DNA of 30,317 nucleotides from a virus: IMG/VR virus record IMGVR_UViG_3300025138_012274, positions 1 to 30,317 of that record, one strand, 5' to 3'. The notes below the pieces were generated by a model. That model did no database searches. It saw only the letters and a list, made by a program, of their open reading frames with translations, and had not been told where the DNA came from. Below, piece after piece: positions 8,462 to 29,944 of this stretch. Made by a program: the position numbers and the translations under genes. The stretch's first letter is position 1. The number at the start of each line of letters is the position of its first letter.

Positions 8462-9058
8462 TTATATGTCTAAATAATATCCATTAAACTTAACTAAGTA
8501 ACTTGTTAAATCTACTCCATTTCCATCAGTATATTTCTTACCATTTCTTACCCATTTACGAACAGTACCAGCTCCTACTAAATGAGCTGCTGCCAATAAT
8601 CCTGATTCAGTAACTAATATTCCGTTCACCAACTTTCCATCATACTTTTTAATCTGTCTTCTTAAAGTATGTTTATTAGCTTTTAAGAGTTTAAGCATAG
8701 CTTCTTCTTGAAGAATAGGGTTATTAAGAAATTCATTTTTAGTCACTTTGTAACCTAAATCTTTTAAAGTTTGGGGACCAAATTGATATGCCCCCATATA
8801 CCCATACTGATTAACTATATGGTATCTATTACTTGATTCTCTTTCAGCCATATCATATAAAAAAGTATCTAAATTATATACCTTTATATACTTTGGAGCT
8901 TCTATAACAGGTTCTGGAAGTGGAGCTATCTCAGCTATCTTCAATTCACTAGCTATAATATAATTCCTATGCATCATATAGCCAAAAGATGATAGCATAA
9001 AAACAAATAAAACAAAAGCAAAGCCTAGTACGAATTCAATATTATCTATTTTTTTCAT
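8462..9058 (-). CDS. Membrane-anchored lysozyme/transglycosylase-like protein
   Basis: 198 residues. An N-terminal membrane or signal-anchor helix (about 9-28, FVLGFAFVLFVFMLSSFGYM) precedes a Pro/Glu linker (45-58) and an SLT/lysozyme-like domain from about 62. E75-S76 in MAERESSNRY and the YGYMGAYQFGPQTLKDLGY segment match the catalytic Glu and the GxxGxxQ-like region of lytic transglycosylases. The expected role is cleavage of peptidoglycan, during lysis or as a spanin-free anchored endolysin. The helix is polar enough to resemble a signal-arrest-release endolysin, but that is inference. No holin was recognised beside it. Confidence 0.7.
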   Translation of the reverse strand: MKKIDNIEFVLGFAFVLFVFMLSSFGYMMHRNYIIASELKIAEIAPLPEPVIEAPKYIKVYNLDTFLYDMAERESSNRYHIVNQYGYMGAYQFGPQTLKDLGYKVTKNEFLNNPILQEEAMLKLLKANKHTLRRQIKKYDGKLVNGILVTESGLLAAAHLVGAGTVRKWVRNGKKYTDGNGVDLTSYLVKFNGYYLDI

Positions 9059-11355: not shown

Positions 11356-12681
11356 TTATTTAAATAAATATTTACTAGTATCAAATAAATATTGTGACCC
11401 TTCTATGTGTTTTTTATTTATGTCTATTAATTCTTTTATTTTAATATCAAAACATCCTATATTATAACTTCCTTTAGGATTTTTTTGTTCTTTTAATAAA
11501 TTATTAAAAATTTGATTTGATTGTTTAATAAATTGATTAGTAATAGGAGCATTAAAGTTTTTAGACAATTCACTCATATCTGTTTTAATTATAATATCAT
11601 CATCTTTATTATAATCTTGTAATAACACAAACCTATCTTTTAAATTATTGCTTTGATTAAAACGATGTTTTACTTCATCCCATTTGCTATTATCATAACC
11701 CCATCTATAGTTACTATAATAATAATAGTTAAAATTGACTTTTCGGTACAATTCTGTTAAAACATCTTTATCATTAATTATTATTTTTTCAAAATAGGGC
11801 TCAATAGCTTCTAATATAGGAAAAAGTGGAACACTATCAATATTAATAATTAATGATGAGTTATATTTAGGTAAATAATGATGACCAAAAAATCCCCATT
11901 TTCTAATAAATCTTTTTAATTCTTCCTGATCAGCTAAGGTTTGCCATTCATTATTTATTTTAACTTTTTCATTATCATTTTTGTACCAATCCTTCCCTCT
12001 TGATGAAACACAAGTATAATGGTAAACATGAGCATTCCAAGTTTCTAGAGCATCTAATTTAGTTGCTCCTATTCTAATAATAAAATCTGAATCCTCTCTA
12101 GAACATCTAAATCTAGTATCAAATCCTCCTAATGTTTTAAAATAAGTTTCTTTATACATCCCAAAAGGAGCAAAATGACCCCAAATCATTGGTCTATTTT
12201 CTTTTTGTAATTCCTTAGAAAACTTAATGAATTCTTTATACTGAAATTCCTCAGGGGTTAATCCAAAACTTTTTGTGATTTTTTCTGGTGATTCTGGATG
12301 TACAGGAGGTTCTATTCTTGCTATAGTAATTATAGCATTTTTATTTTTATTTAATGCCTCTAAAAAATAATAATCAAATTTATTTCCGGCTACCATATCG
12401 GCTTGTAAGTATACAACCACATCATTTGTAGCATGAGAAAATAAAATAGAAATGTTTCTTTGGTATCCTATTCTATCATCTTCATTTTTATAAACTTTAA
12501 TATTAGGTTTATCTTTTCTATATTCTAAAAATGCTTCAAATTGATTTTGATTATCTGAATCTATTAATATTAATACTTCATGTTTTTCAAATTCAGTATT
12601 ATCTACTAAACTATCTAACAGTCCTAGTACATAATTTTTTTCATTTTTAGCAGCGGTAATACAAAAACTAATAGGTTGCAT
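11356..12681 (-). CDS. GT2-family glycosyltransferase, 441 residues
   Basis: GT-A fold at the N-terminus: MQPISFCITAAKNEKNYVLG, a beta-strand/DSD segment (LILIDSDNQ) and Q93-A-D-M in the place of the DXD motif that binds metal-nucleotide sugar. GGFDTRFRCSREDSDF (185-200) matches the GG(F)D...ReDxDF acceptor/catalytic region. The C-terminal 200 residues have no clear domain and could determine the acceptor. It is expected to be cytoplasmic, using a nucleotide sugar to extend a glycan. It is the last gene of the 16-gene glycan module, and promoter P6 starts immediately after its stop. Confidence 0.8.
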   Translation of the reverse strand: MQPISFCITAAKNEKNYVLGLLDSLVDNTEFEKHEVLILIDSDNQNQFEAFLEYRKDKPNIKVYKNEDDRIGYQRNISILFSHATNDVVVYLQADMVAGNKFDYYFLEALNKNKNAIITIARIEPPVHPESPEKITKSFGLTPEEFQYKEFIKFSKELQKENRPMIWGHFAPFGMYKETYFKTLGGFDTRFRCSREDSDFIIRIGATKLDALETWNAHVYHYTCVSSRGKDWYKNDNEKVKINNEWQTLADQEELKRFIRKWGFFGHHYLPKYNSSLIINIDSVPLFPILEAIEPYFEKIIINDKDVLTELYRKVNFNYYYYSNYRWGYDNSKWDEVKHRFNQSNNLKDRFVLLQDYNKDDDIIIKTDMSELSKNFNAPITNQFIKQSNQIFNNLLKEQKNPKGSYNIGCFDIKIKELIDINKKHIEGSQYLFDTSKYLFK

Positions 12682-13435
12682 AATATGTTTTTTTAATTCC
12701 CTCTTTTAATCCTATTAAAGGAATATTTATTTTTTCTTGGTAAGGGCTAATATATGGTTCACCCTCACTTTTATTCTCCAATATAATATCACATTTATGG
12801 GAATCCAAATTATTTATAATTTCTGCTATTTCATATAGACTACAGGTATTATAATAAGAAGCATTTATATTTTTTATTTTAGGGTTTTGTATTATGTAAT
12901 GTATTAAGGAAACAAAATCATCTATATAAAAAAAGTCCATTAACTTATTTTGGTGGATAATTAATGGTTTTTTATTTTTATATCTTTCAATATTGGATTT
13001 TATAAATCTAGTATCCTTTTCATTTTCACTAAATATACCAAACGATAAAATATTATTAAATTTGGGTTCATTTTGTATAATTTTGTGGATGATATTTTTA
13101 CTTAACCCATAAGGTTCAGTTGGTTTACCCAATTCAGCTCCCGAACTTAAATTAATAAATTGTGAATAATTATCTTGGTTAGATAATAAATTATAAAACA
13201 TAGAAATGTTATTATAAAATACTTTACTATCCTCTTTTTCTAATCTATGCCCTCCAGTAATAGCAGTATGAATTACTACATCAAAATATTTATTTTTAAA
13301 AAATTTATTAGTAAGTTCTCTATCACTTAAATCAAAATCATCTCTTCCAATACTAGTAATATGGTGTAAGCCTTTTAGTTTATTAGTTAAATTTTTACCT
13401 ATATAACCATTTTTTCCTGTAATTAATATTTTCAT
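12668..13435 (-). CDS. Short SDR epimerase/reductase, 255 residues
   Basis: An NAD(P)-binding TGKNGYIGKNL (6-16, GxxGxxG) and the SDR catalytic set: Ser around 97 (NLSSGAELG) and Y109-G-L-S-K113 (EPYGLSKNII). FFYIDDF near 160-166 matches the substrate-loop end of extended SDRs. It resembles bifunctional 3,5-epimerase/4-reductase enzymes (Fcl, ColC) in length and place, but the characteristic Cys/His epimerase residues of Fcl could not be pinned. It might finish GDP-L-fucose or GDP-colitose, or act on another 4-keto sugar. It overlaps the GT2 gene by 14 bases. Confidence 0.65.
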   Translation of the reverse strand: MKILITGKNGYIGKNLTNKLKGLHHITSIGRDDFDLSDRELTNKFFKNKYFDVVIHTAITGGHRLEKEDSKVFYNNISMFYNLLSNQDNYSQFINLSSGAELGKPTEPYGLSKNIIHKIIQNEPKFNNILSFGIFSENEKDTRFIKSNIERYKNKKPLIIHQNKLMDFFYIDDFVSLIHYIIQNPKIKNINASYYNTCSLYEIAEIINNLDSHKCDIILENKSEGEPYISPYQEKINIPLIGLKEGIKKTYYATY

Positions 13436-14434
13436 TTATTTTTTAAGTTGTTGTGCTACCTCTAATATTAAATCTTCTTGCCCTGCTACTAATTTTCTAT
13501 TACCTAATTCAAATATAAGGGAAGAATATTCAATGTCATTTAATTTAGAAGCTTTAATGATTGGTCTCTCAAAACCAGAAAATAATTTATTTAACCCAGT
13601 TAACACATTTACAGGATTAATAGTTGGAATCTTAGGTACTAAATAATCTGTTACTTTATCAGCTTCAATTATAACTTGTTTAAAATCTATTCCTACATCA
13701 AAATTAGATTTTTCTAATACAGGTATAAGTACTTCTAAAGGAGCATTTCCAGCTCCAGCACCAAATCCTCTAATACAAGCATCTATATATTTAGCCCCAT
13801 TTTGAGCAGCTACTAATGAATTTGATACAGCACATCCTAAATTATTATGAGCATGGAAACCAATATCAATATTAAGGTTTTCGGTTAATGCCTTAATTCT
13901 TTCTTCTACATTTAAAGGTAAATATGTACCTGTTGAATCCATTATAATAACAGCTTCGGCACCATATTGTTCCATAGTTTTAGCATTTTCAACTAATGTT
14001 TTAGTATCAGTTAATGCCGTCATCATTAATACCCCTAAGGCAGTAACATCTTTATTTTGTAAATATTCTAAATGAGATTTACTAAGAGTTGCTTCAGTAC
14101 AATGAGTAGCTATCCTTACTACATCAACACCCATATCAATTGCTGGTTGGATGTCCTTATTTACTGTTGCAATACCTGGTATTACATGGACACCTAATTT
14201 AGTATTAGTTAAATATTTTTTAGCGGTTTCTATTATTTCTTTATCTGTATGAGTAGCCTTACCTATTAATAATGAAGAAGCACCTAAACCGTTCCCATGG
14301 CCTACTTCAACAATGGGTATATTTGTTTTATTTGCAAATTTACAATATTTTTTAATACTATTTAAACTTATAGTATGTTTTACACTGTGGTTCCCATCTC
14401 TAAGAGAAGAATCTGTTATAATAATATTATTCAT
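13436..14434 (-). CDS. 4-hydroxy-2-oxovalerate aldolase-like enzyme
   Basis: 332 residues, the usual length for DmpG/MhpE. The N-terminal ITDSSLRDGNHSVKH (R12, D13, H20) holds the pyruvate/metal-binding and base residues, VEVGHGNGLGASS follows the VEvaHGdGlggsS motif, and GFHAHNNLG (H194, H196) is the metal-binding HxH. GAGAGNAPLE near residue 230 is a family signature. The enzyme reversibly makes 4-hydroxy-2-oxopentanoate from pyruvate and acetaldehyde. It overlaps the acetaldehyde dehydrogenase by eight bases, the partner that normally channels acetaldehyde to it. In a glycan cluster a biosynthetic direction is likely. Confidence 0.9.
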   Translation of the reverse strand: MNNIIITDSSLRDGNHSVKHTISLNSIKKYCKFANKTNIPIVEVGHGNGLGASSLLIGKATHTDKEIIETAKKYLTNTKLGVHVIPGIATVNKDIQPAIDMGVDVVRIATHCTEATLSKSHLEYLQNKDVTALGVLMMTALTDTKTLVENAKTMEQYGAEAVIIMDSTGTYLPLNVEERIKALTENLNIDIGFHAHNNLGCAVSNSLVAAQNGAKYIDACIRGFGAGAGNAPLEVLIPVLEKSNFDVGIDFKQVIIEADKVTDYLVPKIPTINPVNVLTGLNKLFSGFERPIIKASKLNDIEYSSLIFELGNRKLVAGQEDLILEVAQQLKK

Positions 14435-15281
14435 CTTTTAAATATTTTGTTATTTCAATTGCAGCACAGTTTATTATATCTAAATTGCCAGCATACTCAG
14501 GTAAGTAATCACCTGATCCTTTTACTTTAATACTTAAAACTAAAATATCATCATTAATTACAGGAGGCATTACTAATTCATAGTATGGAATATATGTTTG
14601 TAATTTTTTTATAGTTTTATAAATATCTTCAACCAAAGAAGAGAAATTGATATTATTTGCTTTTACAAACATAGTTGTCTGCATATCAACTTGTGGTTCA
14701 GCTGGGTTAAGATTTAATATTACTTTACATTCCTTACAATTTGTAAACTCTTTAATTGCTTTTTCTGTGGTATTAATATAATTATCAATATTAATTCTTG
14801 TTGCCATTCCAGCACTATCGGAAGCAATTTGGGATACTACTTCAATATAATCTATATTAGAACAATGTTTAGATATTACATTTAATAGTGGGGTTGATGC
14901 TTGTCCACCACAAGTAATCATATTAACATTTCCTTTATTTTGTATTATTCTAGGATTAATATTAGGAACACATAAATCTCCTACTTTAGCTGGAGTTAGA
15001 TCTATTACTTTAATTTCTTGTTTAGCAAATATTTTAGCATGTTTTCTTGCATCATCAGCACTAGTACAATCATAAACTACATCACAACATTTAGGATTAT
15101 CAATAAAATACTGAATGCCCTTGTCTGTTACATTTATATTTAATTCTTGAGCTAATTTAATACCATTAGACTCCATTCTCCTACCAGCAAATATTATAGG
15201 AATAATAAAATCTGTTTTTATCAATTTTAATAATAAATCAGTACCTATATTACCTGTCCCAATTATTCCTGCTTTTATCAT
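14427..15281 (-). CDS. Acylating acetaldehyde dehydrogenase-like enzyme
   Basis: 284 residues, about 20 short of DmpF/MhpF. GIIGTGNIGTDL (5-16) is the Rossmann loop; C124 in NMITCGGQASTP is the catalytic cysteine that forms the acyl-thioester with CoA; AGNLDIINCAA (near 267) matches the C-terminal signature. Reaction: acetyl-CoA + NADH <-> acetaldehyde + CoA. It is adjacent to the aldolase and would supply it (or the ThDP enzyme) with acetaldehyde. Overlaps of eight bases with the aldolase and four with the ThDP enzyme mark one translational unit of three enzymes. Confidence 0.9.
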   Translation of the reverse strand: MIKAGIIGTGNIGTDLLLKLIKTDFIIPIIFAGRRMESNGIKLAQELNINVTDKGIQYFIDNPKCCDVVYDCTSADDARKHAKIFAKQEIKVIDLTPAKVGDLCVPNINPRIIQNKGNVNMITCGGQASTPLLNVISKHCSNIDYIEVVSQIASDSAGMATRINIDNYINTTEKAIKEFTNCKECKVILNLNPAEPQVDMQTTMFVKANNINFSSLVEDIYKTIKKLQTYIPYYELVMPPVINDDILVLSIKVKGSGDYLPEYAGNLDIINCAAIEITKYLKDE

Positions 15282-17068
15282 CTTTGTATTTGATTTGATT
15301 TTTTACTTATTTTTACCTGCATTTCCTTTTCTAATATATTCATAGAAACAAGAGGTGACATTTCTTCTATAGGAGGTGCTAAAATACTCCCATCTGTTTT
15401 AGGTACACCTTTTACTTTAGGTAAAAAACCTTGATGAGGATCCATAAATACTTCTAACACAGAAGGACCACTATGATTTAAAAAACTACTAAGGGAACTG
15501 TCAACATCATTCCATTCTTCTAATTTATAGTACTCATAACCTAAAGCAGGAAACAATTTACTAAAATTAGGTAAACCAATACCTGTATTTTTATCTACAC
15601 TAACGTATTTACCATTAAATAACATTTTTTGAGTGTGTTTAATCATTAAATACCCATCATTGTTAAATATAATAACTTTAACATTCAACCCATTTTCTAT
15701 AACAGTATGCAATTCTTGAAGATTCATCATAATTCCTCCATCACAGTTAAGGCATAATACATCTTTATTAGGACAAGCTGTTGCAGCACCTACTGCTCCT
15801 GCTATACCATATCCCATTTCTCCTAACCCTAATGAAGTAAACATTTTTTGATTAGGTTTTAGTTTTATAGCTTGGTGACCACTTAATAAAGCAGTACCCA
15901 TGTCTGTAACTACAATATGGTCATCTTTTAAATGATTAGATAATTTATCTATAAATTGGTATGAATTAATGTAGTTATCTTTATGTTCATGCTCTTTACT
16001 AATTAAAGGATAATTTATTTTTTTATTTTGACAATATTTTAACCATTCGTTTTCTATAGGTTTAATATCGTTAATTTTGTCTAATAATTGGTCTAAAACA
16101 ACACTAACATTTTCTTTTATATGTAAGTCAATATATTTTTTGGGTGCTTGTAATTCATCAACATCTACGCATATAATTTTACCCTCACGTACAAATTCAT
16201 CCCAATCATATCCAGTTTGTGGTAAAGCTAACCTACTACCTAATACTATTAATAAATCACAATTTTGAACTATATAATTAGCTCCTCTTTGTCCATATAA
16301 CCCAAATCTACCAAAAAAGTTTGGATTATTACTTTCTATTAAATCAATTCCTGACCAAGTTAAAGTTGTAGGGATATTTGTTTTATTAATAAATTTATTA
16401 AATTTATCTTTAGAATTTGATAATCTAACACCATTTCCCCCTAAAATTAAAGGGCATTTAGATTCGTTTAAGGCATTAATTAAAAATTTAGAATAATCAA
16501 TTTGATTATTATTTAAAGATTGTGGTTTACTCCATAATTGTTTTTTTACTAATTTAGATTGAATATCAAAAGGTATATCTAACCAAGTTGGACCTTTTCT
16601 ATCTTCCATAGTAATATTAAAACATTTTTCTAACTCTAATTGAATATGATTTTCATCCATTAAACAATAAGAATATTTAGTAACATCCTTAACCATTTTT
16701 GATACATTAAACCCTTGAGTACCATACATTCTTAAAGATTTATGTTCCTTAATATGAAATGAAGATTCATTACCTGAAATTATAAACCCAGGAATTGAAT
16801 CCGCCCAATTACTGACCACGCCTGTTATAGCATTTGATGCTCCAGCCCCTGCAGTTACTATAGAAGCTGATAATTTGCCTGAAGCTCTATAATGAGCTCC
16901 CATTGCCATAATTGCTGCTTGTTCATGGTGTGTGTTGATGATCTTAGTGTATCCTAATTTATTTATTGAATCAAATATGTGGGAATTTGCAGAACCTATA
17001 ATACCAAAAACAGTTTTAATTTCTTTTTCCTTTAAAAACTCAGCTACTATATCACTTACTTTTACCAT
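15278..17068 (-). CDS. ThDP-dependent acetolactate-synthase-like enzyme
   Basis: 596 residues, standard for the ALS/POX family. E49 in NTHHEQAAIMAMGA is the glutamate that activates the thiamine C2. NCDGGIMMNLQEL (442-453) with NND (469-471) is the ThDP/Mg2+ motif (CDG replacing the usual GDG). The C-terminus (LPKVKGVPKTDGSIL, APPIEEMSPL) is as in ALS-like enzymes of surface-polysaccharide loci. Such enzymes decarboxylate pyruvate to hydroxyethyl-ThDP and add it to a carbonyl; the related YerE adds two carbons to a 4-keto sugar. It may do likewise here, but the acceptor is unknown. No regulatory subunit is near, so branched-chain amino acid synthesis is unlikely. Confidence 0.85.
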   Translation of the reverse strand: MVKVSDIVAEFLKEKEIKTVFGIIGSANSHIFDSINKLGYTKIINTHHEQAAIMAMGAHYRASGKLSASIVTAGAGASNAITGVVSNWADSIPGFIISGNESSFHIKEHKSLRMYGTQGFNVSKMVKDVTKYSYCLMDENHIQLELEKCFNITMEDRKGPTWLDIPFDIQSKLVKKQLWSKPQSLNNNQIDYSKFLINALNESKCPLILGGNGVRLSNSKDKFNKFINKTNIPTTLTWSGIDLIESNNPNFFGRFGLYGQRGANYIVQNCDLLIVLGSRLALPQTGYDWDEFVREGKIICVDVDELQAPKKYIDLHIKENVSVVLDQLLDKINDIKPIENEWLKYCQNKKINYPLISKEHEHKDNYINSYQFIDKLSNHLKDDHIVVTDMGTALLSGHQAIKLKPNQKMFTSLGLGEMGYGIAGAVGAATACPNKDVLCLNCDGGIMMNLQELHTVIENGLNVKVIIFNNDGYLMIKHTQKMLFNGKYVSVDKNTGIGLPNFSKLFPALGYEYYKLEEWNDVDSSLSSFLNHSGPSVLEVFMDPHQGFLPKVKGVPKTDGSILAPPIEEMSPLVSMNILEKEMQVKISKKSNQIQR

Positions 17069-18024
17069 ATAAAATTTTCTTTTAATGAATTTACAATCTT
17101 AGGTAATTCATCAGCAAATACTATTTTAGGACACCACCCTAATTTTCTTAACTTATCATCATTTAAAGCATATCTTACATCTTGACCCTGTCTTGAATAA
17201 GATAAATCTAAGTATGTACTTATTTCTTCTGGTGTTAAATCTGTATTGTGGTACGATTTAATAATTTGTTTAACTGTATCTAAATTATTTTGTTCAAAAC
17301 CACCACAAATGTTATATATTTCATTTTTAACATTACTATCAATAATAGTTAATACTGATTCTGCTGTATCGTTAGCATGTAACCAATTTCTAATTGGTTT
17401 TCCACCATTATGTAAGGGGATAGGTTTATTTAAACCTAAATATTTTATAGATTTTGGGATTAATTTTTCTACATATTGACCTATACCATAGTTGTTTGTA
17501 GGTCTTAATATAACATAAGGAATTGAATATGTTCTCCCCCAAGCTATAATTAATTGATCAGCTGCTGCTTTAGTTGCAGAATAAGGGTTTGATGGTTTCA
17601 ATATATCAGTTTCAATATGTTCTCCTTCTGTTATATCTCCATAAACTTCATCTGTAGAAAAATGTAATAGAGTTGGTAGTTGGGAACTTTCAGCTCTATA
17701 ATTTTTTATTAATTCTAATATATTATGTACCCCATTTATGTTTGAAGCTAAAAAATCATTACTTTTAACAATTGAATTACCAACATGGGTTTCTGCTGCT
17801 GTATTAATAACATAATCACATTCATATAAAAACTCAATATCATTAATATCCTTATCTTCAAATATAAAATTATCATAACAATAAAACTCATCTAATAAAT
17901 GTTTATTTGCAGCATAAGTACACTTATCAATTCCTCGTACATACCATCCCCGTTTTAAACAAGAACGAGTAACGTGGCTTCCAATAAACCCTAAACAACC
18001 TGTTATATAAACTATTCTTTTCAT
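17062..18024 (-). CDS. RmlB-like dTDP-glucose 4,6-dehydratase
   Basis: 320 residues. TGCLGFIGSHV (8-18) is the NAD loop; FSTDEVYGD has T124-D125-E126, the catalytic Thr-Asp-Glu of RmlB; Y148-S-A-T-K152 is the YxxxK pair; IDKCTYAAN (32-40) corresponds to the DkLTYAGN substrate-loop signature. It removes water from a nucleotide glucose to make the 4-keto-6-deoxy sugar. RmlB is the first guess, though other 4,6-dehydratases share these residues. No RmlA, C or D is in the window, so dTDP-glucose would come from the host. It overlaps the ThDP enzyme by seven bases, suggesting that the 4-keto product is its substrate. Confidence 0.85.
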   Translation of the reverse strand: MKRIVYITGCLGFIGSHVTRSCLKRGWYVRGIDKCTYAANKHLLDEFYCYDNFIFEDKDINDIEFLYECDYVINTAAETHVGNSIVKSNDFLASNINGVHNILELIKNYRAESSQLPTLLHFSTDEVYGDITEGEHIETDILKPSNPYSATKAAADQLIIAWGRTYSIPYVILRPTNNYGIGQYVEKLIPKSIKYLGLNKPIPLHNGGKPIRNWLHANDTAESVLTIIDSNVKNEIYNICGGFEQNNLDTVKQIIKSYHNTDLTPEEISTYLDLSYSRQGQDVRYALNDDKLRKLGWCPKIVFADELPKIVNSLKENFIW

Positions 18025-18025
18025 G

Positions 18026-18931
18026 TTAATTATCTATATTTATCCAACTTGGTGGGTAATAATTACCATTAATCCAAGAAGATTGATGGTCTTGTTTTAA
18101 CCAATTAGTGGGACATATTATTTTTTTATTTTTACTTTTACTCAAATAAGCACCCCACCATGAATAAGAGCTATTACAAGTAATATGATGATCACATAAA
18201 CTCATTAAAGCTAAATCTTCTTTTTCTGAATCAGTACATACTTTATCTCCTCCTTCAGGTGCGACAAAATATATATTATCTCCTTCAAGTAGGTTTTTAG
18301 CAAATTTTATATCATTAGAAAAAACTACAAAATTATAATCTTCTGTGGGCATAAATTGATCTACTATTGCTTTTGTATAATATTCATGATCCAATATACA
18401 AAAAGAAAAGTTAGATAACAAATAATCCCCTCTTCTCATATGAATACTAACAGTAGGTTTATTATTTCCAAAATATTTTTTAATATCTTTCATTCTTTTA
18501 ATTGATTGATCCCGAAGGTTAGGGAGAAAATTCCATTTTTCTACTTCTTGTCCTATAGAATCATACCAATAAGAATATAAATCAAATCTACCTATTAAAT
18601 TATAGTTAACTCCAGATTTTAAATTAAATAAAGTTTTATCATATCTAGTAGTATGAAAATTAATAGATTTATCTTCAAAATTATTAAAAAATTCTAAAGG
18701 TTTTATTTCATATTCCTCTTCCAAATCTAATAAATCAAATATTCTAATTTTAGTTTGGAAGGGTTCTTGAGTTGGGGGGTATTTAGTTAAAATTCCTTTA
18801 ATATTTTCTTTTGAAAAAACTATTTTTAAATTATTAGCTCTTGCTACTGCTAGGAGACCTGAAAAAATTTGGAGTTGGGAACATAGTCCTCCAGATGCCC
18901 CCATATTATTTAAAGTTATATAATTAGTCAT
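18026..18931 (-). CDS. GT11-type (fucosyltransferase-family) glycosyltransferase
   Basis: 301 residues, normal for alpha-1,2-fucosyltransferases. The N-terminal GASGGLCSQLQIF matches the family GGLGNQxFQ region, HMRRGDY (164-170) is the GDP-binding HxRRGDY motif, and NSSYSWWGAYL (253-263) matches SNSTFSWWxA.L. The donor is expected to be a GDP-sugar: fucose in most members. Here the GDP-mannose 4,6-dehydratase upstream and the ColD-like gene could instead give GDP-colitose; I recall a colitosyltransferase in this family, not verified here. It overlaps the Gmd gene by eight bases. Confidence 0.85.
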   Translation of the reverse strand: MTNYITLNNMGASGGLCSQLQIFSGLLAVARANNLKIVFSKENIKGILTKYPPTQEPFQTKIRIFDLLDLEEEYEIKPLEFFNNFEDKSINFHTTRYDKTLFNLKSGVNYNLIGRFDLYSYWYDSIGQEVEKWNFLPNLRDQSIKRMKDIKKYFGNNKPTVSIHMRRGDYLLSNFSFCILDHEYYTKAIVDQFMPTEDYNFVVFSNDIKFAKNLLEGDNIYFVAPEGGDKVCTDSEKEDLALMSLCDHHITCNSSYSWWGAYLSKSKNKKIICPTNWLKQDHQSSWINGNYYPPSWINIDN

Positions 18932-19901
18932 TTTTATATATTTTTACCCAATGTTCAATCATCTCATCCATCATACTTTCAAAAGTATATTCAGTTTTCC
19001 ATCCTAATTTTCTAATTAAAGTTGAATCTCCTTTTAGATATTTTAACTCTTCAGGACGTAAAAATTTTTGATTTTGAACCACAAATTTTTTATAATCTAA
19101 ATCTAATTGAGAAAAAACATATTCACACATATCTCTTACTGAACGAGTTTCTCCTGTTGCTACAACCCAATCTCCAGGATGTGGTTGTTGTAAAATTAAA
19201 TGCATAGCACGAACATAATCTTTTGAATGTCCCCAATCTCTATAAGCATCTAAATTACCTAGTTCTAATTCATTTTGGAGTCCTAATTTAATTCTAACAG
19301 CAGCCTTAACTACTTTATTAGTAACAAAATTTGATCCTCTACGGGGTGATTCATGGTTAAATAAAATTCCGTTTGAGGTATGTAATTTATAAGCGTTACG
19401 ATAATTTCTTACAATATTATAACCAAATACTTTAGCACATCCATAAGGAGATACAGGAGTCATTCTAGTTGATTCTCTTTGAAAACCATCTTCATCAACT
19501 GAACTCCCAAACATTTCTGATGAAGATGCTTGGTAAAATTTAGCATTGGGGCAATTATTACGAACTGCTTCTAATATATTTAATACACCAAGTGAATTTG
19601 TTTGGACTGTAAATTGTGGAATTTCATAACTGATTCTTACATGAGATTGGGCAGCCATGTTGTATACTTCATCAGGTTGTATATTACGTAGCAGTCGTTC
19701 AATTCCTGAAGTATCATTTAAATCACCGTAACTTACGTGTACACTTGGATTATTTCGTATAGGATCTAATCTTGATTGTTGATGTTCTGGAGTCGAGTTT
19801 CGTCTAACAATCCCATAAACTTCATAATCTAAACTTAATAGGTATTCTGCTAAATAAGAACCATCTTGCCCCCCAATTCCTGTTATAAATGCTTTTTTCA
19901 T
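18924..19901 (-). CDS. gmd: GDP-mannose 4,6-dehydratase
   Basis: 325 residues. TGIGGQDGSYLAEYL is the NADP loop typical of Gmd. S128-E129 (SSSEMFG) and Y153-G-C-A-K157 form the catalytic set. LFNHESPRRGSNFVT and LGNLDAYRDWGHSKDYVRAM are near-exact family signatures. It converts GDP-mannose to GDP-4-keto-6-deoxy-mannose, the branch point for fucose, colitose, rhamnose and perosamine. Downstream enzymes for several of these branches are in the same operon. No GDP-mannose synthesis gene is here, so the phage depends on host GDP-mannose. The overlap with the short DegT gene upstream is four bases. Confidence 0.95.
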   Translation of the reverse strand: MKKAFITGIGGQDGSYLAEYLLSLDYEVYGIVRRNSTPEHQQSRLDPIRNNPSVHVSYGDLNDTSGIERLLRNIQPDEVYNMAAQSHVRISYEIPQFTVQTNSLGVLNILEAVRNNCPNAKFYQASSSEMFGSSVDEDGFQRESTRMTPVSPYGCAKVFGYNIVRNYRNAYKLHTSNGILFNHESPRRGSNFVTNKVVKAAVRIKLGLQNELELGNLDAYRDWGHSKDYVRAMHLILQQPHPGDWVVATGETRSVRDMCEYVFSQLDLDYKKFVVQNQKFLRPEELKYLKGDSTLIRKLGWKTEYTFESMMDEMIEHWVKIYKND

Positions 19902-20494
19902 AAATTATTTTTAAATATATCCATTTGTGTTAAATCAGGCCAATCTGTTATAACCCACGGTTTTGGTTTTGTTTTAATAGCATCATCTAATTTTTTTAGA
20001 CCCTTTGTTGCTGTTTCAGGAGTCATATAATAATGATAACCTAATGTGTTTATGTTTTGGTCTCTCCAGGGTACATTAGGAATTCTACCATCATAAGTCA
20101 TTTTTTTTAATTGTTCTGCTGCTTCTTTATTATCCGTTAATATAATACCCCCCCTACCAAGAGACAAATGTTTTTGAAATTGAAATGATATATTCATAAA
20201 AGTACCAGGGATATAACTATTTTCTTTCCATAATACAGCGGCATCAATTACTGTATCAGTTAAATAATAATAATCAACCCAATTTTCATCTTTCCAATTT
20301 AAATCTATTCCTAATTTATTAGCTAAAAAAGGTATAGATAAATAGGTTCTTTTAGGTACTACTATACAATCAACTCCTTCATATATTAAACAGAGTTCAA
20401 CTCCATGTGTACAACAATCAATAGCTACAGCGTAGGGAGCACCAAAAAATTCTGCTACTTTATTTTCGAATCTAGTTACTGTTTCAAAGCTCAT
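19898..20494 (-). CDS. Compact DegT-type PLP aminotransferase, 198 residues
   Basis: About half the normal 370-400 residues of the family. SFQFQKHLSLGRGGI (103-117) matches SFxxxKxLxxGxGG, so the internal-aldimine lysine is kept at K108; D84 in VIDAAVLW corresponds to the residue that binds the PLP ring nitrogen. The N-terminal small domain and much of the C-terminal domain are absent, and Cys27-Cys28 (DCCTHGVEL) replace the usual SGT phosphate-binding segment. If active it may use a dimer or GDP-4-keto-6-deoxy-mannose (perosamine-type). Loss of activity cannot be excluded. Its position between Gmd and the formyltransferase suggests the 4-amino sugar intermediate. Confidence 0.7.
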   Translation of the reverse strand: MSFETVTRFENKVAEFFGAPYAVAIDCCTHGVELCLIYEGVDCIVVPKRTYLSIPFLANKLGIDLNWKDENWVDYYYLTDTVIDAAVLWKENSYIPGTFMNISFQFQKHLSLGRGGIILTDNKEAAEQLKKMTYDGRIPNVPWRDQNINTLGYHYYMTPETATKGLKKLDDAIKTKPKPWVITDWPDLTQMDIFKNNL

Positions 20495-20496
20495 TA

Positions 20497-21156
20497 TTAT
20501 ATAAATTTTGGTGGAAAGAATAATATTTTTTCTTGTAACTCACTATCTAAATGACTAACATCTGGAAATTTATTGTAATAAAATTTTCCTAATTTATCTT
20601 GAGGTACCCCCTTATCCTTATTAGAGACTTTTTCTAATATCTTTTCTAAATAAGATATACCTAAAGAATATATTTTATGATTTAAAGTAAAAGCATTATC
20701 ATCCATTATACTAATATTAAAAACTTTTAAAATATTCCCTTGATCTATTTCTGGAGTGATATAATGCCAAGTGCCCCCAACAAATGATTCTTTATTTATT
20801 AATGAATGTATTGTTGATAAACTACCTTTATAAAAAGGTAATATACCAGGATGAAAATTTATAAATTGAGGATTTAATGAGAGAATTGATTTTGGAATAA
20901 TAAAGGGATTTGAAAGGGAAATTACACAATCGGGTTTGTGAAATTCTATATAATGTTTAAGGGTAGAAGAAAAAGTTAATTTATCAACTATAAAATAATC
21001 TATTTTATAATATTTTAGGAATTCTATACAACTTAAATTAAATTCTCCTTTAACTGTTATTACCTTTAAGTTATCAGGAATAACTTTTAAAGAATATAAT
21101 TCTCTAATTAATTGAATTAATTGAGAACCCTGGCCTATAACAATAAATTTTGTCAT
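20497..21156 (-). CDS. Sugar N-formyltransferase-like protein, 219 residues
   Basis: Methionyl-tRNA formyltransferase-fold protein without the tRNA-binding C-terminal domain. N100-F-H102-P-G-I-L-P is the NxHPS/GxLP active-site segment and D138 in EIDQGNIL is the third catalytic residue (the N-H-D triad). FYKGSLSTIHSLI and GGTWHYITPEIDQG follow the family. The reaction transfers a formyl group from N10-formyltetrahydrofolate to an amino sugar. WbkC (GDP-perosamine) and similar enzymes are the closest functional model. It sits two bases downstream of the cupin gene and two upstream of the compact DegT gene, and needs an aminosugar from a neighbour. Confidence 0.8.
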   Translation of the reverse strand: MTKFIVIGQGSQLIQLIRELYSLKVIPDNLKVITVKGEFNLSCIEFLKYYKIDYFIVDKLTFSSTLKHYIEFHKPDCVISLSNPFIIPKSILSLNPQFINFHPGILPFYKGSLSTIHSLINKESFVGGTWHYITPEIDQGNILKVFNISIMDDNAFTLNHKIYSLGISYLEKILEKVSNKDKGVPQDKLGKFYYNKFPDVSHLDSELQEKILFFPPKFI

Positions 21157-21158
21157 TA

Positions 21159-21569
21159 TTAAATAAATGTTTTATCTAAAGCCTGACCTTCATACGGTCC
21201 TGTTTTATATTCATAAACTAAAGTACCATTTTCAAGAATTTCATAATTATGTCCTCCTTCTAATGTAAAAGAAGCATCACCTTGTTCTAATATAGGTTCT
21301 ACTAATATAGTATCATCTAAATCATAAAAAATACATTTAACTTTACCTTGAATTACTATCCAACTTTCCTGAGCAATAACATTTCTCCTTCTATTTTTAA
21401 ATATATGTTTATGGGGTTTAAAAGTTTTACCCTTTTCCATATTAAGATGGGAACATTGTATAAAATGTTTTTCAGGTATAATATCTTTTCTACCTGGCTT
21501 TAAGTCTTCTTTTCTTACTACTATATGTAATAATTTTTTAGGATCTATTTTGGAATAATATTTGATCAT
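21159..21569 (-). CDS. Cupin-domain protein, 136 residues
   Basis: A small single-domain cupin. H53-K-H55 (KPHKHIFKNR), E68 (QESWIVIQGKV) and H107 (GGHNYEIL) give the HxH...E...H metal site. Alternating strands around (IQGKVKCIFYD, LVYEYKTGPYEG) are the barrel. WbuC-like cupins and 3,4-ketoisomerases in O-antigen clusters are the nearest analogues, but FdtA-type ketoisomerases lack this metal set, so the function stays open. It overlaps the ColD-like gene by four bases, implying it works on the same sugar or regulates the branch. Confidence 0.7.
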   Translation of the reverse strand: MIKYYSKIDPKKLLHIVVRKEDLKPGRKDIIPEKHFIQCSHLNMEKGKTFKPHKHIFKNRRRNVIAQESWIVIQGKVKCIFYDLDDTILVEPILEQGDASFTLEGGHNYEILENGTLVYEYKTGPYEGQALDKTFI

Positions 21570-22708
21570 TTATTAAAAAATTTTTTTATTTTATCACAAA
21601 CATAATCAACATCTTCTAAATTCATACCATGGTGGGCACCTAATAGAAAACCATTTTTCATCACTAGATCAGCATTTTTAAAATCTTGTAAATATTTTCT
21701 ATAAATTGGATGCCTAGTGACATTGCCCGCAAATGTAACTCTTGTTTGAATGTGGTTATCTTCTAAAAAATTTAATAATTCCAATCTACGTTCAGTTTGA
21801 AGTGGTATTGCCAACCAGTTAGGTTTAATACTATCATCAGGAAGTATTAATTCTTTGACGTCTTTAAGATTTTTTAAATAACGCTCAATATTATCTCTAC
21901 GTTTTTGTTTAAATGTTTGAAAGCGTTCTAGTTGCACTAGACCAAATGCCGCACTCATTTCACTACATTTCATATTATAACCTAATACACCATATAAAAA
22001 TTTGTAATCATATGGTAAACCATCAACATTATGTGCAAACCTTTCATCCATATTTTCACTATTATTTCCTATACGTCCCCAATCTCTATATTGTAATGCT
22101 TTTTTAACATGTTTTTTATCATTAAACATTACCATTCCTCCCATTCCACCAGCAGTAATAACATGGGAAGCATAAAAACTTGTTGTTGAAACATCTGATT
22201 CCTTTGTATAAGTTACAGTGTCTGCTGAATCTTCAATAACAAAAATATCTTCTCTATTAATTTCTATTAAATATCTTTTTAATTTATCCCAATCTGGTTT
22301 ATTTCCAATTAAATTAGGAATCATAATTGCTCTAGTATCGGGCGTTATTGCATCTAATATATCATTAATATCAGGAACATAAGATGTTAAATTAGAATCT
22401 ATAAAAATAGGTTCATATCCTAACTGTATAATAGGAGCTAATGTTGTTGAAAAAGTTAAAGAAGGTGTAATTATTTTACTTCCTTTGGGTAAATCTAAAG
22501 CTGCTATCGCTAATAAACAAGCAGAAGAACCTGAATTTACAAATACCCCATATTTTTTACCAAATTCTTTTGCAATTTTTTCTTCAAACTCTATAGAACG
22601 AGGTCCAAATCCAGCTAACCATCCATCTCTAAGACACTGTTCAACGGCTTTTATTTCTTCTTCCCCATAAGCTTCTAGTTTATTGGGGGCGTACCAAATT
22701 TTTTTCAT
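21566..22708 (-). CDS. DegT-fold 3-dehydratase-like enzyme (His at PLP site)
   Basis: 380 residues, full-length for ColD-type enzymes and shorter than Fe-S-containing RfbH. SGSSACLLA (59-67) binds PLP phosphate; IEDSADT (158-164) gives the Asp pair to the PLP ring; SFYASHVITAGGMGG has H182 exactly where aminotransferases have the aldimine Lys. ColD and RfbH have the same Lys-to-His change and remove the C3 hydroxyl of a 4-keto-6-deoxy sugar. GYNMKCSEMSAAFGLVQLER is the family's C-terminal substrate segment. Likely substrate: the Gmd product, giving the colitose-type branch; the RmlB product is the alternative. No Fe-S cysteine set is seen. Confidence 0.8.
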   Translation of the reverse strand: MKKIWYAPNKLEAYGEEEIKAVEQCLRDGWLAGFGPRSIEFEEKIAKEFGKKYGVFVNSGSSACLLAIAALDLPKGSKIITPSLTFSTTLAPIIQLGYEPIFIDSNLTSYVPDINDILDAITPDTRAIMIPNLIGNKPDWDKLKRYLIEINREDIFVIEDSADTVTYTKESDVSTTSFYASHVITAGGMGGMVMFNDKKHVKKALQYRDWGRIGNNSENMDERFAHNVDGLPYDYKFLYGVLGYNMKCSEMSAAFGLVQLERFQTFKQKRRDNIERYLKNLKDVKELILPDDSIKPNWLAIPLQTERRLELLNFLEDNHIQTRVTFAGNVTRHPIYRKYLQDFKNADLVMKNGFLLGAHHGMNLEDVDYVCDKIKKFFNK

Positions 22709-26784: not shown

Positions 26785-27756
26785 TTAGTAAATTATACCT
26801 TCCCCACAATTTTCTTTATCCTCTTTATAAGGACAAAATGTACAATTCCATTTAGAAATAGACTTAGGATATTCTATATCTTTTATTTCCCCATTTGAAT
26901 TAAAGCATTCACTTACAAAACTATTCATAGCTTTTTTTGCTCTTCCTAATTTAATTTTCCCACTTGGTGGAGTAAATATTTGAACCCTATGAGCCTGATA
27001 AGGTGACATAAGTTTTTCATCATTAATATCTAATACTTTTCTTTTAACAATAAAAAATTCAATTTCTATATTATCTAAAGGTATACCATATTGTTCTGAA
27101 AAGTATTGTTTATATAATAGTAGTTGGAATTGTTTATTTTCATCTTTTTTAGAATAATCATTCCACCCTTTAGTACTTGTTTTTATGTCTATTATCTTAA
27201 AAGTATTAGTATTTTCATTATACGTGACAACATCTAAATACCCCATGTATAATACGTTATTATACATTTTATTAGGTGCAATTACTATAGGTATTTCACA
27301 ACCTACCAAATATGTTCCTTTTTTAGAAAAATATCTGCTACGTTTTTTCTTAAACCAATCTAATATATTAACCCCATCTTCAAAAAACTCTCTCATTTCA
27401 GAAGCATCTGAAAAATGCTCACTATTATTTTTTTTATATTGAGTTTGATATTCTTCTATAAATTTTTGATGAAATAATTCCTTAATATCTATTTCTCTAT
27501 CCGCATATGCCCCACTTTTTTCATACATTACATCTAAATAATGTTGCATTACTTCGTGTATAGCAGTACCAAATACTGTATGTATAGAAGAAGTAAATCT
27601 TCTTATTTTATCTTTGTACTGTAATTTCCACCGATGAGGGCAACTACGAAATATAGACATTTGCGAATAAGAAATATTTTTCTGATAAGCAAAGTTAATT
27701 TCTTGAGGTGGATTTAAACGAATCTCCTTAACTATATTTGGGATTTTTTTAGCCAA
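26785..27756 (-). CDS. RecB/Cas4-like PD-(D/E)XK nuclease, 323 residues
   Basis: YSQMSIFRSCPHRWKLQY with C39 begins the domain, GTAIHEVM (63-70, H67) is the first motif, D175 in MGYLDVVTYN and D190-I-K192 in IIDIKTS complete the D...DxK site, and a following QLLLYKQYF is the RecB motif's Q-x3-Y. Three more Cys at C305, C308 and C317 (CTFCPYK...C) with C39 give the 4Fe-4S cluster of Cas4/AddB-type nucleases. Length about 320 equals the larger phage Cas4-like proteins. Expected to digest single- or double-stranded DNA ends in recombination or host-DNA breakdown. It follows the Nmad1-like gene by one base. Confidence 0.85.
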   Translation of the reverse strand: MAKKIPNIVKEIRLNPPQEINFAYQKNISYSQMSIFRSCPHRWKLQYKDKIRRFTSSIHTVFGTAIHEVMQHYLDVMYEKSGAYADREIDIKELFHQKFIEEYQTQYKKNNSEHFSDASEMREFFEDGVNILDWFKKKRSRYFSKKGTYLVGCEIPIVIAPNKMYNNVLYMGYLDVVTYNENTNTFKIIDIKTSTKGWNDYSKKDENKQFQLLLYKQYFSEQYGIPLDNIEIEFFIVKRKVLDINDEKLMSPYQAHRVQIFTPPSGKIKLGRAKKAMNSFVSECFNSNGEIKDIEYPKSISKWNCTFCPYKEDKENCGEGIIY

Positions 27757-28159: not shown

Positions 28160-28376
28160 TTATTTGTTGTTCTAAAGAAAAATATTTATCTATTGTTGCT
28201 AATCTATCATCAGCATCAACTAACATAGCAAGTGCTTCTTCAGCATTTTTATAATAATCTCCAGTTGAATGGTCTCCAATTCCTACTGCTTTATCACCTA
28301 ATAATTCAAGTGATAATAAAGCTTTTGCTTTATCTGCTTGTGCAGACGTACGTAACATTTCTATTAATTTATTCAT
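28152..28376 (-). CDS. Helical hypothetical protein, 74 residues
   Basis: MNKLIEMLRTSAQADKAKAL and a second helix (EEALAMLVDADDRLATIDKY) flank a Gly-rich loop (AVGIGDHSTGD). All-helical, acidic, no Cys. It overlaps the gp62-like gene's stop (ATGA) and the next gene by eight bases, so it lies in the replication operon. The pattern of LLSLELLGDKAVGIGDHST resembles small conserved T4-like phage proteins of unknown function; I cannot name the family. Confidence 0.65.
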   Translation of the reverse strand: MNKLIEMLRTSAQADKAKALLSLELLGDKAVGIGDHSTGDYYKNAEEALAMLVDADDRLATIDKYFSLEQQING

Positions 28377-28792
28377 TTTATTAAGGGTTTTATTTCTTTT
28401 TTATTTAATCCTCTTTCCATTAATATACGATTAATTTCTGGGGTATCCAATATATTTATATATTCTTTTGCTTCTTTACTGGAACATTCAAAATAATCTC
28501 TAATATGATCTACTAAGTCTTTATTTGGTTGTTTAATTTTAGATTTAATATATTTATTCCATTTATTATTTTTAGGTATAAATTCTTTGTAAATAGTATA
28601 AATTGATTTTTTTTCCTGTGGTGGATAATCTTGAACAAAATTGACTATCTCTAAATAATCAGGATTCATAGATAAAAATCTATGAACCATATAACTATTA
28701 AATACCTCCCAATCTTTATCGCTAAAGGATTTAGTTGGAGTTTTATACTGATTTATATGTTTTAACCAATCAAATATATTAGAGCAATTCAT
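28373..28792 (-). CDS. 62: gp62-like clamp-loader small subunit, 139 residues
   Basis: MNCSNIFDWLKHINQYKTPT starts a protein with the general form of T4 gp62: helical, with a W in the first ten residues, followed by FVQDYPPQEKKSIYTIYKEF and a C-terminal helical pair (EAKEYINILDTPEINRILME). T4 gp62 is 187 residues, so this is a shorter version. It works with gp44 (downstream of which it lies, with one small gene between) to open the sliding clamp. Similarity is weak, so the call relies partly on position. It overlaps the 80-residue gene by 14 bases. Confidence 0.6.
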   Translation of the reverse strand: MNCSNIFDWLKHINQYKTPTKSFSDKDWEVFNSYMVHRFLSMNPDYLEIVNFVQDYPPQEKKSIYTIYKEFIPKNNKWNKYIKSKIKQPNKDLVDHIRDYFECSSKEAKEYINILDTPEINRILMERGLNKKEIKPLIK

Positions 28793-29023: not shown

Positions 29024-29944
29024 TTATTTATTTTTTATTAAATTTTGTATTAATGACATCGTATTAATTTCCTTATCAATACGAAAGTTTGATTTATATT
29101 GGTGTTCATTTATTAAAATAGCAGCAGTTCCTTCTTTACCTGGCATATATTCTGATGCTTTATCGTATAACATTCTGAATAATTCATCAAAATCATCTAT
29201 ATTTGCATCTGCTATAATTTGTCTAATTGTAGAATACCCTTGTTGTGAGTTTCGTGTACTTAAAATAGAAATAACTTGATCTATGTAATTTGATGATACT
29301 AATATTGATTTATCTAATTGTAATTTATTATCTTGAGTAGATAATTGTATAGTATTAATACATTTACGTAAATCTGGATAATATTGGTTAACTAAAGGTG
29401 CTAAATCTTTAACATTATGTTCAATTGATTCTTCATTTAATAACCAATTTAAATGTTTAGCAACATCTTTTTTAGTTGGGGGTACAATTTTAAGTACTTG
29501 GCACCTTGATTGTAAAGGATCAATAATCCTTTCTACAAAATTACAAGTCATAATAAATCTAGTAGTACGGGAAAAAGTTTCTATTACATTTCGAAGTGAA
29601 GCTTGAGCTTGAATTGTTAAAAAATCAGCTTCATCTAAAATAACTACTTTAAGAGGTTTAAAAGAAGCAACACTTGCAAAACTTGATACTTTATCTCTAA
29701 TTGTTTCTATGCCTCTTTCATCACTAGCATTTATATAAAGATGATCACAATTTAAATTTTGAACACAAATTTTGGCTAACGTTGTTTTTCCTGTACCTGC
29801 GGGGCCATAAAATATTAAATTTTGGATATCATTTTGTTCTATATATTTAGAAATAGATTTTTTAATATTTTCATTACCAACATAATTCTCTAATTTAGAG
29901 GGTCGATATTTTTCTACTAATAAACTATTCTCCGTATTCGCCAT
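29024..29944 (-). CDS. 44: Clamp-loader ATPase, gp44/RFC small-subunit type
   Basis: 306 residues; T4 gp44 has 319. LVEKYRPSKLENYVGNE is the RFC-box start, GPAGTGKTT (47-55) the Walker A, LDEAD (103-107) the Walker B, S146-R-C148 the SRC arginine finger, and TCNF the sensor 1 region. It forms the ATPase ring that loads the sliding clamp on primed DNA with gp62. It overlaps the 90-residue gene by 20 bases. This is the strongest indicator of a T4-like replication module and of phage origin. Confidence 0.9.
   Translation of the reverse strand: MANTENSLLVEKYRPSKLENYVGNENIKKSISKYIEQNDIQNLIFYGPAGTGKTTLAKICVQNLNCDHLYINASDERGIETIRDKVSSFASVASFKPLKVVILDEADFLTIQAQASLRNVIETFSRTTRFIMTCNFVERIIDPLQSRCQVLKIVPPTKKDVAKHLNWLLNEESIEHNVKDLAPLVNQYYPDLRKCINTIQLSTQDNKLQLDKSILVSSNYIDQVISILSTRNSQQGYSTIRQIIADANIDDFDELFRMLYDKASEYMPGKEGTAAILINEHQYKSNFRIDKEINTMSLIQNLIKNK

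Follow-up and report, generated by a model that had tools for sequence, protein, structure and literature searches.

A phage gene block that probably directs synthesis of an erwiniose-type C4-branched sugar

This study concerns a block of sugar genes in the virus record IMGVR_UViG_3300025138_012274, whose 30,317 bases (28% GC) were analysed in full and are called the window below. All of its open reading frames of at least 100 aa lie on the minus strand. At the centre of the block are three genes, which encode a thiamine diphosphate (ThDP)-dependent carboligase of the YerE/JanthE kind with a CDG motif (15278..17068, 596 aa), an acylating acetaldehyde dehydrogenase of the DmpF/BphJ/MhpF type (AcDH; 14427..15281, 284 aa) and a 4-hydroxy-2-oxovalerate aldolase of the DmpG/BphI/MhpE type (13436..14434, 332 aa). 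Transcription proceeds towards lower coordinates, from the gene of an RmlB-like nucleoside diphosphate (NDP)-hexose 4,6-dehydratase (17062..18024) through the trio to that of a protein of the short-chain dehydrogenase/epimerase family (SDR; 12668..13435). The RmlB-like and ThDP genes overlap by 7 bases, the ThDP and AcDH genes by 4, and the AcDH and aldolase genes by 8. A DegT-fold sugar 3-dehydratase of the RfbH/ColD type is encoded further upstream (21566..22708). The original prediction, made from these letters without database searches, had taken the trio as one unit of sugar rather than aromatic metabolism with its key catalytic residues in place, and this held: the gene order is repeated in dozens of other viral contigs, which goes beyond chance; the neighbours are glycosyltransferases and nucleotide-sugar enzymes; and the window genes that were scanned include none for aromatic degradation.

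By sequence and predicted fold, the ThDP enzyme is nearer to YerE and JanthE than to acetohydroxyacid synthase (AHAS); its YerE-like character had also been predicted. In a PDB search it scored 547 bits with JanthE (8rph), 256 with PpYerE (5ahk) and 226 with AHAS I, and its identity is 42.3% to JanthE, 31.9% to PpYerE and 28.3% to IlvB. For the predicted model (pLDDT 86, pTM 0.89), Foldseek placed JanthE 8rph first (E 8.6e-68, TM 0.92), and the E values of AHAS and 5ahk were some twenty orders of magnitude weaker. An assignment as AHAS was rejected, the scores lying below the equivalog cut-offs shown for AHAS and acetolactate synthase (ALS) (TIGR00118, 322 vs 538; PRK08978, 332 vs 738). No gene for the regulatory ACT subunit of AHAS is adjacent or in the block; the ThDP gene overlaps at its two ends with the RmlB-like gene and the AcDH gene. 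The phage and bacterial CDG proteins group with JanthE in a single clade (100/99) of a 64-row tree, in which bacterial proteins with mainly SDG or GDG motifs make up a separate clade. E49 and the motif LNCDGG...NND are present, and LNCDGG is common to the window enzyme, JanthE and every full-length relative above 590 bits. The CDG motif of JanthE has been termed unique (PMC12247030); a GDGG-bearing relative, L050, sits inside the JanthE clade, so the motif is imperfect as a diagnostic. JanthE of Janthinobacterium sp. HH01 (PDB 8rph/8rpi/8rpj), the closest solved relative, also shares Y268, P293, Y297, H494 and K567 with the window enzyme, which differs from it at V121 (T117) and S498 (M482).

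The other two members of the trio pass their equivalog models. AcDH scores 309.6 bits against a TIGR03215 cut-off of 282.25, matches PDB entries 7z3s, 4jn6 and 1nvm chain B, and keeps the catalytic C124, which is invariant in an alignment including E. coli MhpF. The aldolase scores 326.2 bits against a TIGR03217 cut-off of 286, carries the DmpG_comm communication domain (PF07836) and matches 8ih7 and 1nvm; R12, D13, H16, H194 and H196 are invariant in an alignment including E. coli MhpE. The predicted flow from acetyl-CoA and pyruvate to 4-hydroxy-2-oxopentanoate is likely. The pair has its fold family, catalytic residues, communication domain and gene adjacency in common with DmpFG, BphJI and MhpFE, from which it differs in its sugar context, its presumed synthetic direction and two residues that bear on stereochemistry. 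The window aldolase carries His83 and Phe285 where BphI has Leu87 and Tyr290; the Leu/Tyr pair is also that of DmpG and MhpE. Among 72 viral cassette aldolases, the residue at BphI position 87 is His in 69 and Phe in 3, and that at position 290 is Phe in 66, with Met, Val or a gap in the rest and never Tyr. BphI yields only (4S)-4-hydroxy-2-oxopentanoate; the Y290F exchange relaxes this control, and either double exchange, L87N/Y290F or L87W/Y290F, reverses it in favour of (4R) (PMC3962088). By analogy, the cassette aldolases would be a natural counterpart of the engineered double exchange that inverts BphI, and may make (4R)-4-hydroxy-2-oxopentanoate; His is not among the residues engineered at position 87. 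Bacterial relatives show the same residues, with the exception of the classical MhpE-like L232. The aldolases of two bacterial loci, L230 and L231, share the His yet have no ThDP gene, which indicates that the residue change marks a clade and not sugar use as such.

On the sugar side, the RmlB-like protein has the motifs STDEVYG and YSATK, scores 271.6 bits with TIGR01181 (below the cut-off of 365) and finds dTDP-glucose 4,6-dehydratases as its best PDB matches; its gene adjoins the ThDP gene in most viral loci. The best NCBIfam match of the DegT protein is RfbH, with 256.5 bits (below the cut-off of 423), and its best PDB matches are the CDP-4-keto-6-deoxyglucose 3-dehydrase entries 3bcx and 3bb8, with ColD next. 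Like RfbH (E1) and ColD, it has His in place of the lysine that binds pyridoxal phosphate (SFYASHVITAGGMGG; SFYASH aligns with SFYPAHH of 3bcx), and it shares their fold family and E1-like conserved blocks. Unlike RfbH, it is a short form of 382 aa and is without the cysteines of the E1 [2Fe-2S] cluster (RDWGRIGNNSENMDERF vs the RDWGR.CYC...C motifs), and it was therefore filed as RfbH/ColD-like and not as RfbH. Its membership in the pathway is suggested by synteny. A 3-dehydratase, either a full-length cysteine-bearing RfbH or the short Fe-S-free form, was found in 17 of 20 viral contigs checked; two kinds alternating beside the same ThDP cassette argue that 3-deoxygenation belongs to the pathway. 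The SDR protein (Pfam Epimerase) gave no PDB match below 1e-5; its gene stands after that of the aldolase in most phage loci.

The linkage of the trio was counted from both sides, as numbers of loci and not of independent events, the contigs being partly redundant. Two scans of viral sequences returned 66 distinct CDG-ThDP genes; AcDH and aldolase both accompany 55 of them, 2 have just one of the pair (at a contig edge) and 9 have neither (8 of these away from edges). For the aldolase side, a profile including E. coli MhpE was used, as the window aldolase alone matched near-copies only. This profile found 73 viral aldolase loci. A CDG-ThDP gene accompanies 64 of them, a ThDP gene of another kind or split in two accompanies 6, and the remaining 3 end at a contig edge; every untruncated locus lies near a ThDP gene. 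The neighbourhood search that the original prediction had called for found the same trio in sugar loci of viruses, and of bacteria as well. In the INPHARED phage collection, ThDP matches reached at most 31% identity, were mostly IlvB-like and came in part from records resembling host DNA; nothing cassette-like was found there. The six aldolase loci outside the CDG group comprise L215 and L217, whose ThDP genes are whole and encode a GDG motif, and L207, L211, L214 and L216, whose ThDP genes lie in two frames. In these four, N- and C-terminal frames adjoin AcDH and aldolase (L207:4315-6089, L211:4315-6089, L214:6837-8461, L216:7876-11092; L207 and L211 are near-copies) and may come from an insertion or a frameshift, or else encode an enzyme in two parts.

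RfbF, RfbG and RfbH, which most of the bacterial relatives have in addition, together synthesize CDP-4-keto-3,6-dideoxyglucose. Among bacterial loci, which were taken from metagenome-assembled and GTDB genomes, RfbF, RfbG and a His-type DegT occur together with AcDH, aldolase and CDG-ThDP in L049, L051, L078, L079, L083 and L097, the last being the sole further relative from an order-level sample around L050 that was aimed at the locus of JanthE itself. L228 has the same set with a GDG-ThDP, and L227 and L229 are truncated versions. Most RfbF-RfbG-RfbH loci with a ThDP gene of the sister clade are without AcDH and aldolase, as expected if those ThDP enzymes take another donor. In L230 (8327-11610) and L231 (7476-10662), AcDH and aldolase genes stand with a class I aminotransferase-like gene, and the sequence read around them shows no ThDP gene; from its gene content, this set might make 4-hydroxynorvaline.

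The closest chemical precedent is ErwE of Pectobacterium atrosepticum, known here from papers. ErwE reportedly couples 4-hydroxy-2-oxobutanoate, -pentanoate or -hexanoate, and not pyruvate, to CDP-4-keto-3,6-dideoxyglucose to form erwiniose (PMC12247030), a ten-carbon C4-branched sugar (PMC8657720, PMC12247030). JanthE takes 4-hydroxy-2-oxovalerate with benzaldehyde; its physiological substrates were unidentified as of 2025 (PMC12188165). Given these donors, and since AcDH and aldolase accompany the ThDP enzyme nearly everywhere, a four-carbon branch probably comes from the C5 acid; and the His-type 3-dehydratase in the same operon makes a 3-deoxy 4-keto sugar the probable immediate acceptor. 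The block is thus read as a phage-borne pathway to an erwiniose-type C4-branched 3,6-dideoxy sugar nucleotide, with a probability of roughly 0.7. This reading departs from the original prediction, which had suggested a two-carbon branch on a 4-keto sugar, with the C5 acid used elsewhere, and had known of no described product for such a combination; erwiniose fits it.

Genes, motifs, homologies and conserved linkage, taken together with the published biochemistry of ErwE and JanthE donors and of the aldolase positions, would give the following route. The RmlB-like enzyme would form an NDP-4-keto-6-deoxyhexose, from which the His-type DegT would take off O3 to give the NDP-4-keto-3,6-dideoxyhexose. 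AcDH would convert acetyl-CoA to acetaldehyde and pass it to the aldolase, which would join it with pyruvate to 4-hydroxy-2-oxopentanoate, probably the (4R) enantiomer. The ThDP enzyme would decarboxylate this acid and add the resulting 3-hydroxybutanoyl carbanion to the C4 ketone, so that a tertiary alcohol with a four-carbon branch would arise (6 + 4 = 10 carbons). The branch ketone would be reduced by SDR, in the role ascribed to YerF; SDR homologues (72-90 bits) also occur next to bacterial ThDP genes that lack AcDH and aldolase, which would suit a reduction shared by the two- and four-carbon routes. Glycosyltransferases would then put the sugar onto a glycan of the phage or host surface, although reduction and transfer may follow in the other order. 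The candidate transferase is a family-2 glycosyltransferase (GT2) at the end of the block (11356..12681; Pfam Glycos_transf_2, 2.5e-14), whose position is conserved among loci.

Likeness to ErwE would lie in the YerE-like ThDP enzyme, the 4-hydroxy-2-oxopentanoate-type donor, the 4-keto-3,6-dideoxy acceptor and the ten-carbon product expected here. ErwE works on a sugar bound to cytidine diphosphate (CDP), whereas in the phage the 4,6-dehydratase is RmlB-like, the 3-dehydratase lacks the Fe-S cysteines and no RfbF scores above cut-off. YerE likewise adds its unit to the C4 ketone of a 3,6-dideoxy sugar, but it moves two carbons from pyruvate and needs neither AcDH nor aldolase.

Several observations weigh against this pathway. 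RfbF, which forms CDP-glucose, was above cut-off in none of the 20 viral contigs, most of which are fragments; the phages may take a nucleotide sugar from the host and use their own RmlB-like dehydratase. The case for 4-hydroxy-2-oxopentanoate as donor is by analogy to ErwE and, with benzaldehyde, to JanthE, and JanthE also takes pyruvate (PMC12247030). One phage clade (L015-L021, L024 and L025), the source of the CDG-ThDP genes counted above with neither partner, keeps DegT, ThDP and SDR without nearby AcDH, aldolase or RmlB-like genes, and its ThDP pocket residues match those of the trio phages, with no change that would explain the missing pair. This clade is nested in the ThDP tree, which would most simply mean one loss of AcDH and aldolase. 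A wider pocket comparison (V121, Y268, P293, Y297, H494, F564 and K567 in JanthE numbering) did not separate ThDP enzymes with the pair from those without it; position 498 alone differs between the two groups (Met vs Leu in phages), too small a difference for donor assignment. Finally, the pairs in L230 and L231 indicate that AcDH and aldolase have another use too.

Among the alternatives, it is possible, if rather unlikely, that a different acyl-CoA or aldehyde is used and that the ThDP enzyme transfers another 3-hydroxyacyl chain, giving a relative of erwiniose, e.g. a longer or more oxidised sugar of the caryophyllose type. His83 and Phe285 alter the wall of the aldolase pocket, ErwE accepts the C4 and C6 acids too, and caryophyllose-type sugars bear long branches (PMC12247030). 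AcDH, however, passes the acetaldehyde dehydrogenase model, and the residue whose exchange for Ala affects the aldehyde length limit of BphI, Leu89 (PMC3962088), has Ile85 as its window equivalent, which is not small.

An improbable alternative is that the cassette serves two products, the ThDP enzyme adding the acetyl unit of pyruvate as in yersiniose and 4-hydroxy-2-oxopentanoate going elsewhere, e.g. into 4-hydroxynorvaline or an acyl decoration. The pyruvate activity of JanthE, the aminotransferase beside the L230 and L231 pairs and the ThDP clade without AcDH and aldolase would agree with this, but untruncated viral loci never show the pair without a ThDP gene, and no aminotransferase or acyltransferase is comparably constant beside the trio. 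Very improbable is the non-sugar role published for the genes of the prasinovirus MpV-1, in which an "acetolactate synthase" serves branched-chain amino-acid synthesis and AcDH and oxovalerate aldolase detoxify aldehydes (PMC5371798): the ThDP enzyme stays below the AHAS models shown and groups with JanthE, the block has no regulatory subunit gene, and the glycan context and the 3-dehydratase are constant. That the pair splits 4-hydroxy-2-oxopentanoate to pyruvate and acetyl-CoA, as the homologous DmpFG and MhpFE do in catabolism by reversible reactions, deserves almost no weight, since no upstream catabolic gene was found in the window, the linkage to sugar genes is fixed, and the catabolic stereo-control residues are replaced.

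The erwiniose-type pathway may extend beyond phages. Four contigs (L026-L028 and L040) are apparently from large eukaryotic DNA viruses, judged by eye from their other genes; their trio is divergent, with ThDP and AcDH forward and the aldolase reverse, and L026 and L028 carry the Fe-S-free His-type DegT. They were not identified as prasinoviruses. MpV-1, then the only virus known with AcDH and oxovalerate aldolase (PMC5371798), has the same three annotated functions as the window trio, as taken from the annotation in the papers, and related Micromonas viruses also carry an aminotransferase and a dTDP-glucose 4,6-dehydratase (PMC5454428). By this analogy, MpV-1 and the IMG/VR contigs may share one cassette, and the prasinovirus "amino-acid synthesis" and "aldehyde detoxification" genes may be glycan genes. 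A bolder proposal, put forward only tentatively, is that phages and some large eukaryotic DNA viruses possess a self-contained C4-branch sugar factory that departs from the bacterial erwiniose route by an RmlB-derived (perhaps dTDP) nucleotide sugar, an Fe-S-free 3-dehydratase and an aldolase whose (4R) product mirrors the catabolic one; the sugar would coat virions or remodel glycans of the host surface.

ErwE chemistry, described in a few bacteria, the JanthE/YerE-like kind of enzyme and the AcDH/aldolase pair are not new, and an in silico study, as cited in a review, used cluster similarity to list more than 200 YerE-like enzymes. As far as the searches reached, what is apparently new is the phage cassette, the glycan reading of the prasinovirus genes, the 3-dehydratase alternative without Fe-S and the residue change in the aldolase; the literature search found no paper joining the aldolase/AcDH pair with O-antigen synthesis. 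Under the proposed pathway, three genes that make an odd set when labelled "aromatic degradation" and "acetolactate synthase" would form a single sugar route, and JanthE gains a candidate for its natural donor. If phages and algal viruses do share the cassette, rare branched sugars would be recurrent in virus-host surface chemistry.

As for its origin, which the original prediction had missed, the window is by its gene content a T4-like phage contig and not bacterial: it carries T4-type clamp-loader subunits (28373-28792 and 29024-29944), a T4-type exonuclease (26785-27756) and a tail-lysozyme-like gene (8462-9058). The closest annotated relative of its clamp loader, from Microcystis phage Mel-JY01, is merely 42% identical, so the phage is distant from isolated phages. 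No Rfam match and no tRNA were found in the window.

The block of glycosyltransferase and nucleotide-sugar genes spans about 11.3-26.5 kb, in the order His-type DegT, cupin, formyltransferase, short DegT-like, GDP-mannose 4,6-dehydratase-like (GMD-like), GT11, RmlB-like, ThDP, AcDH, aldolase, SDR and GT2. The GT11-type, fucosyltransferase-like gene lies at 18026..18931 (Pfam Glyco_transf_11, 1.8e-21) and the GMD-like gene at 18924..19901 (Pfam GDP_Man_Dehyd, 8.6e-111; gmd 376 bits, cut-off 415); the GMD-like enzyme is a possible alternative source of a 4-keto sugar. Adjoining it are a DegT/LegC-like aminotransferase gene (19898-20494), conserved in loci L001, L002, L029 and L125, whose 198-aa product is about half the usual length and may be a miniature aminotransferase, and formyltransferase-like and WbuC-like cupin genes (20497-21569). 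The formyltransferase-like and cupin genes suggest a second, formylated amino sugar in this glycan block. Distant from the block, a gene at 2527-2997 encodes an RfaE/TagD-like nucleotidyltransferase of 156 aa.

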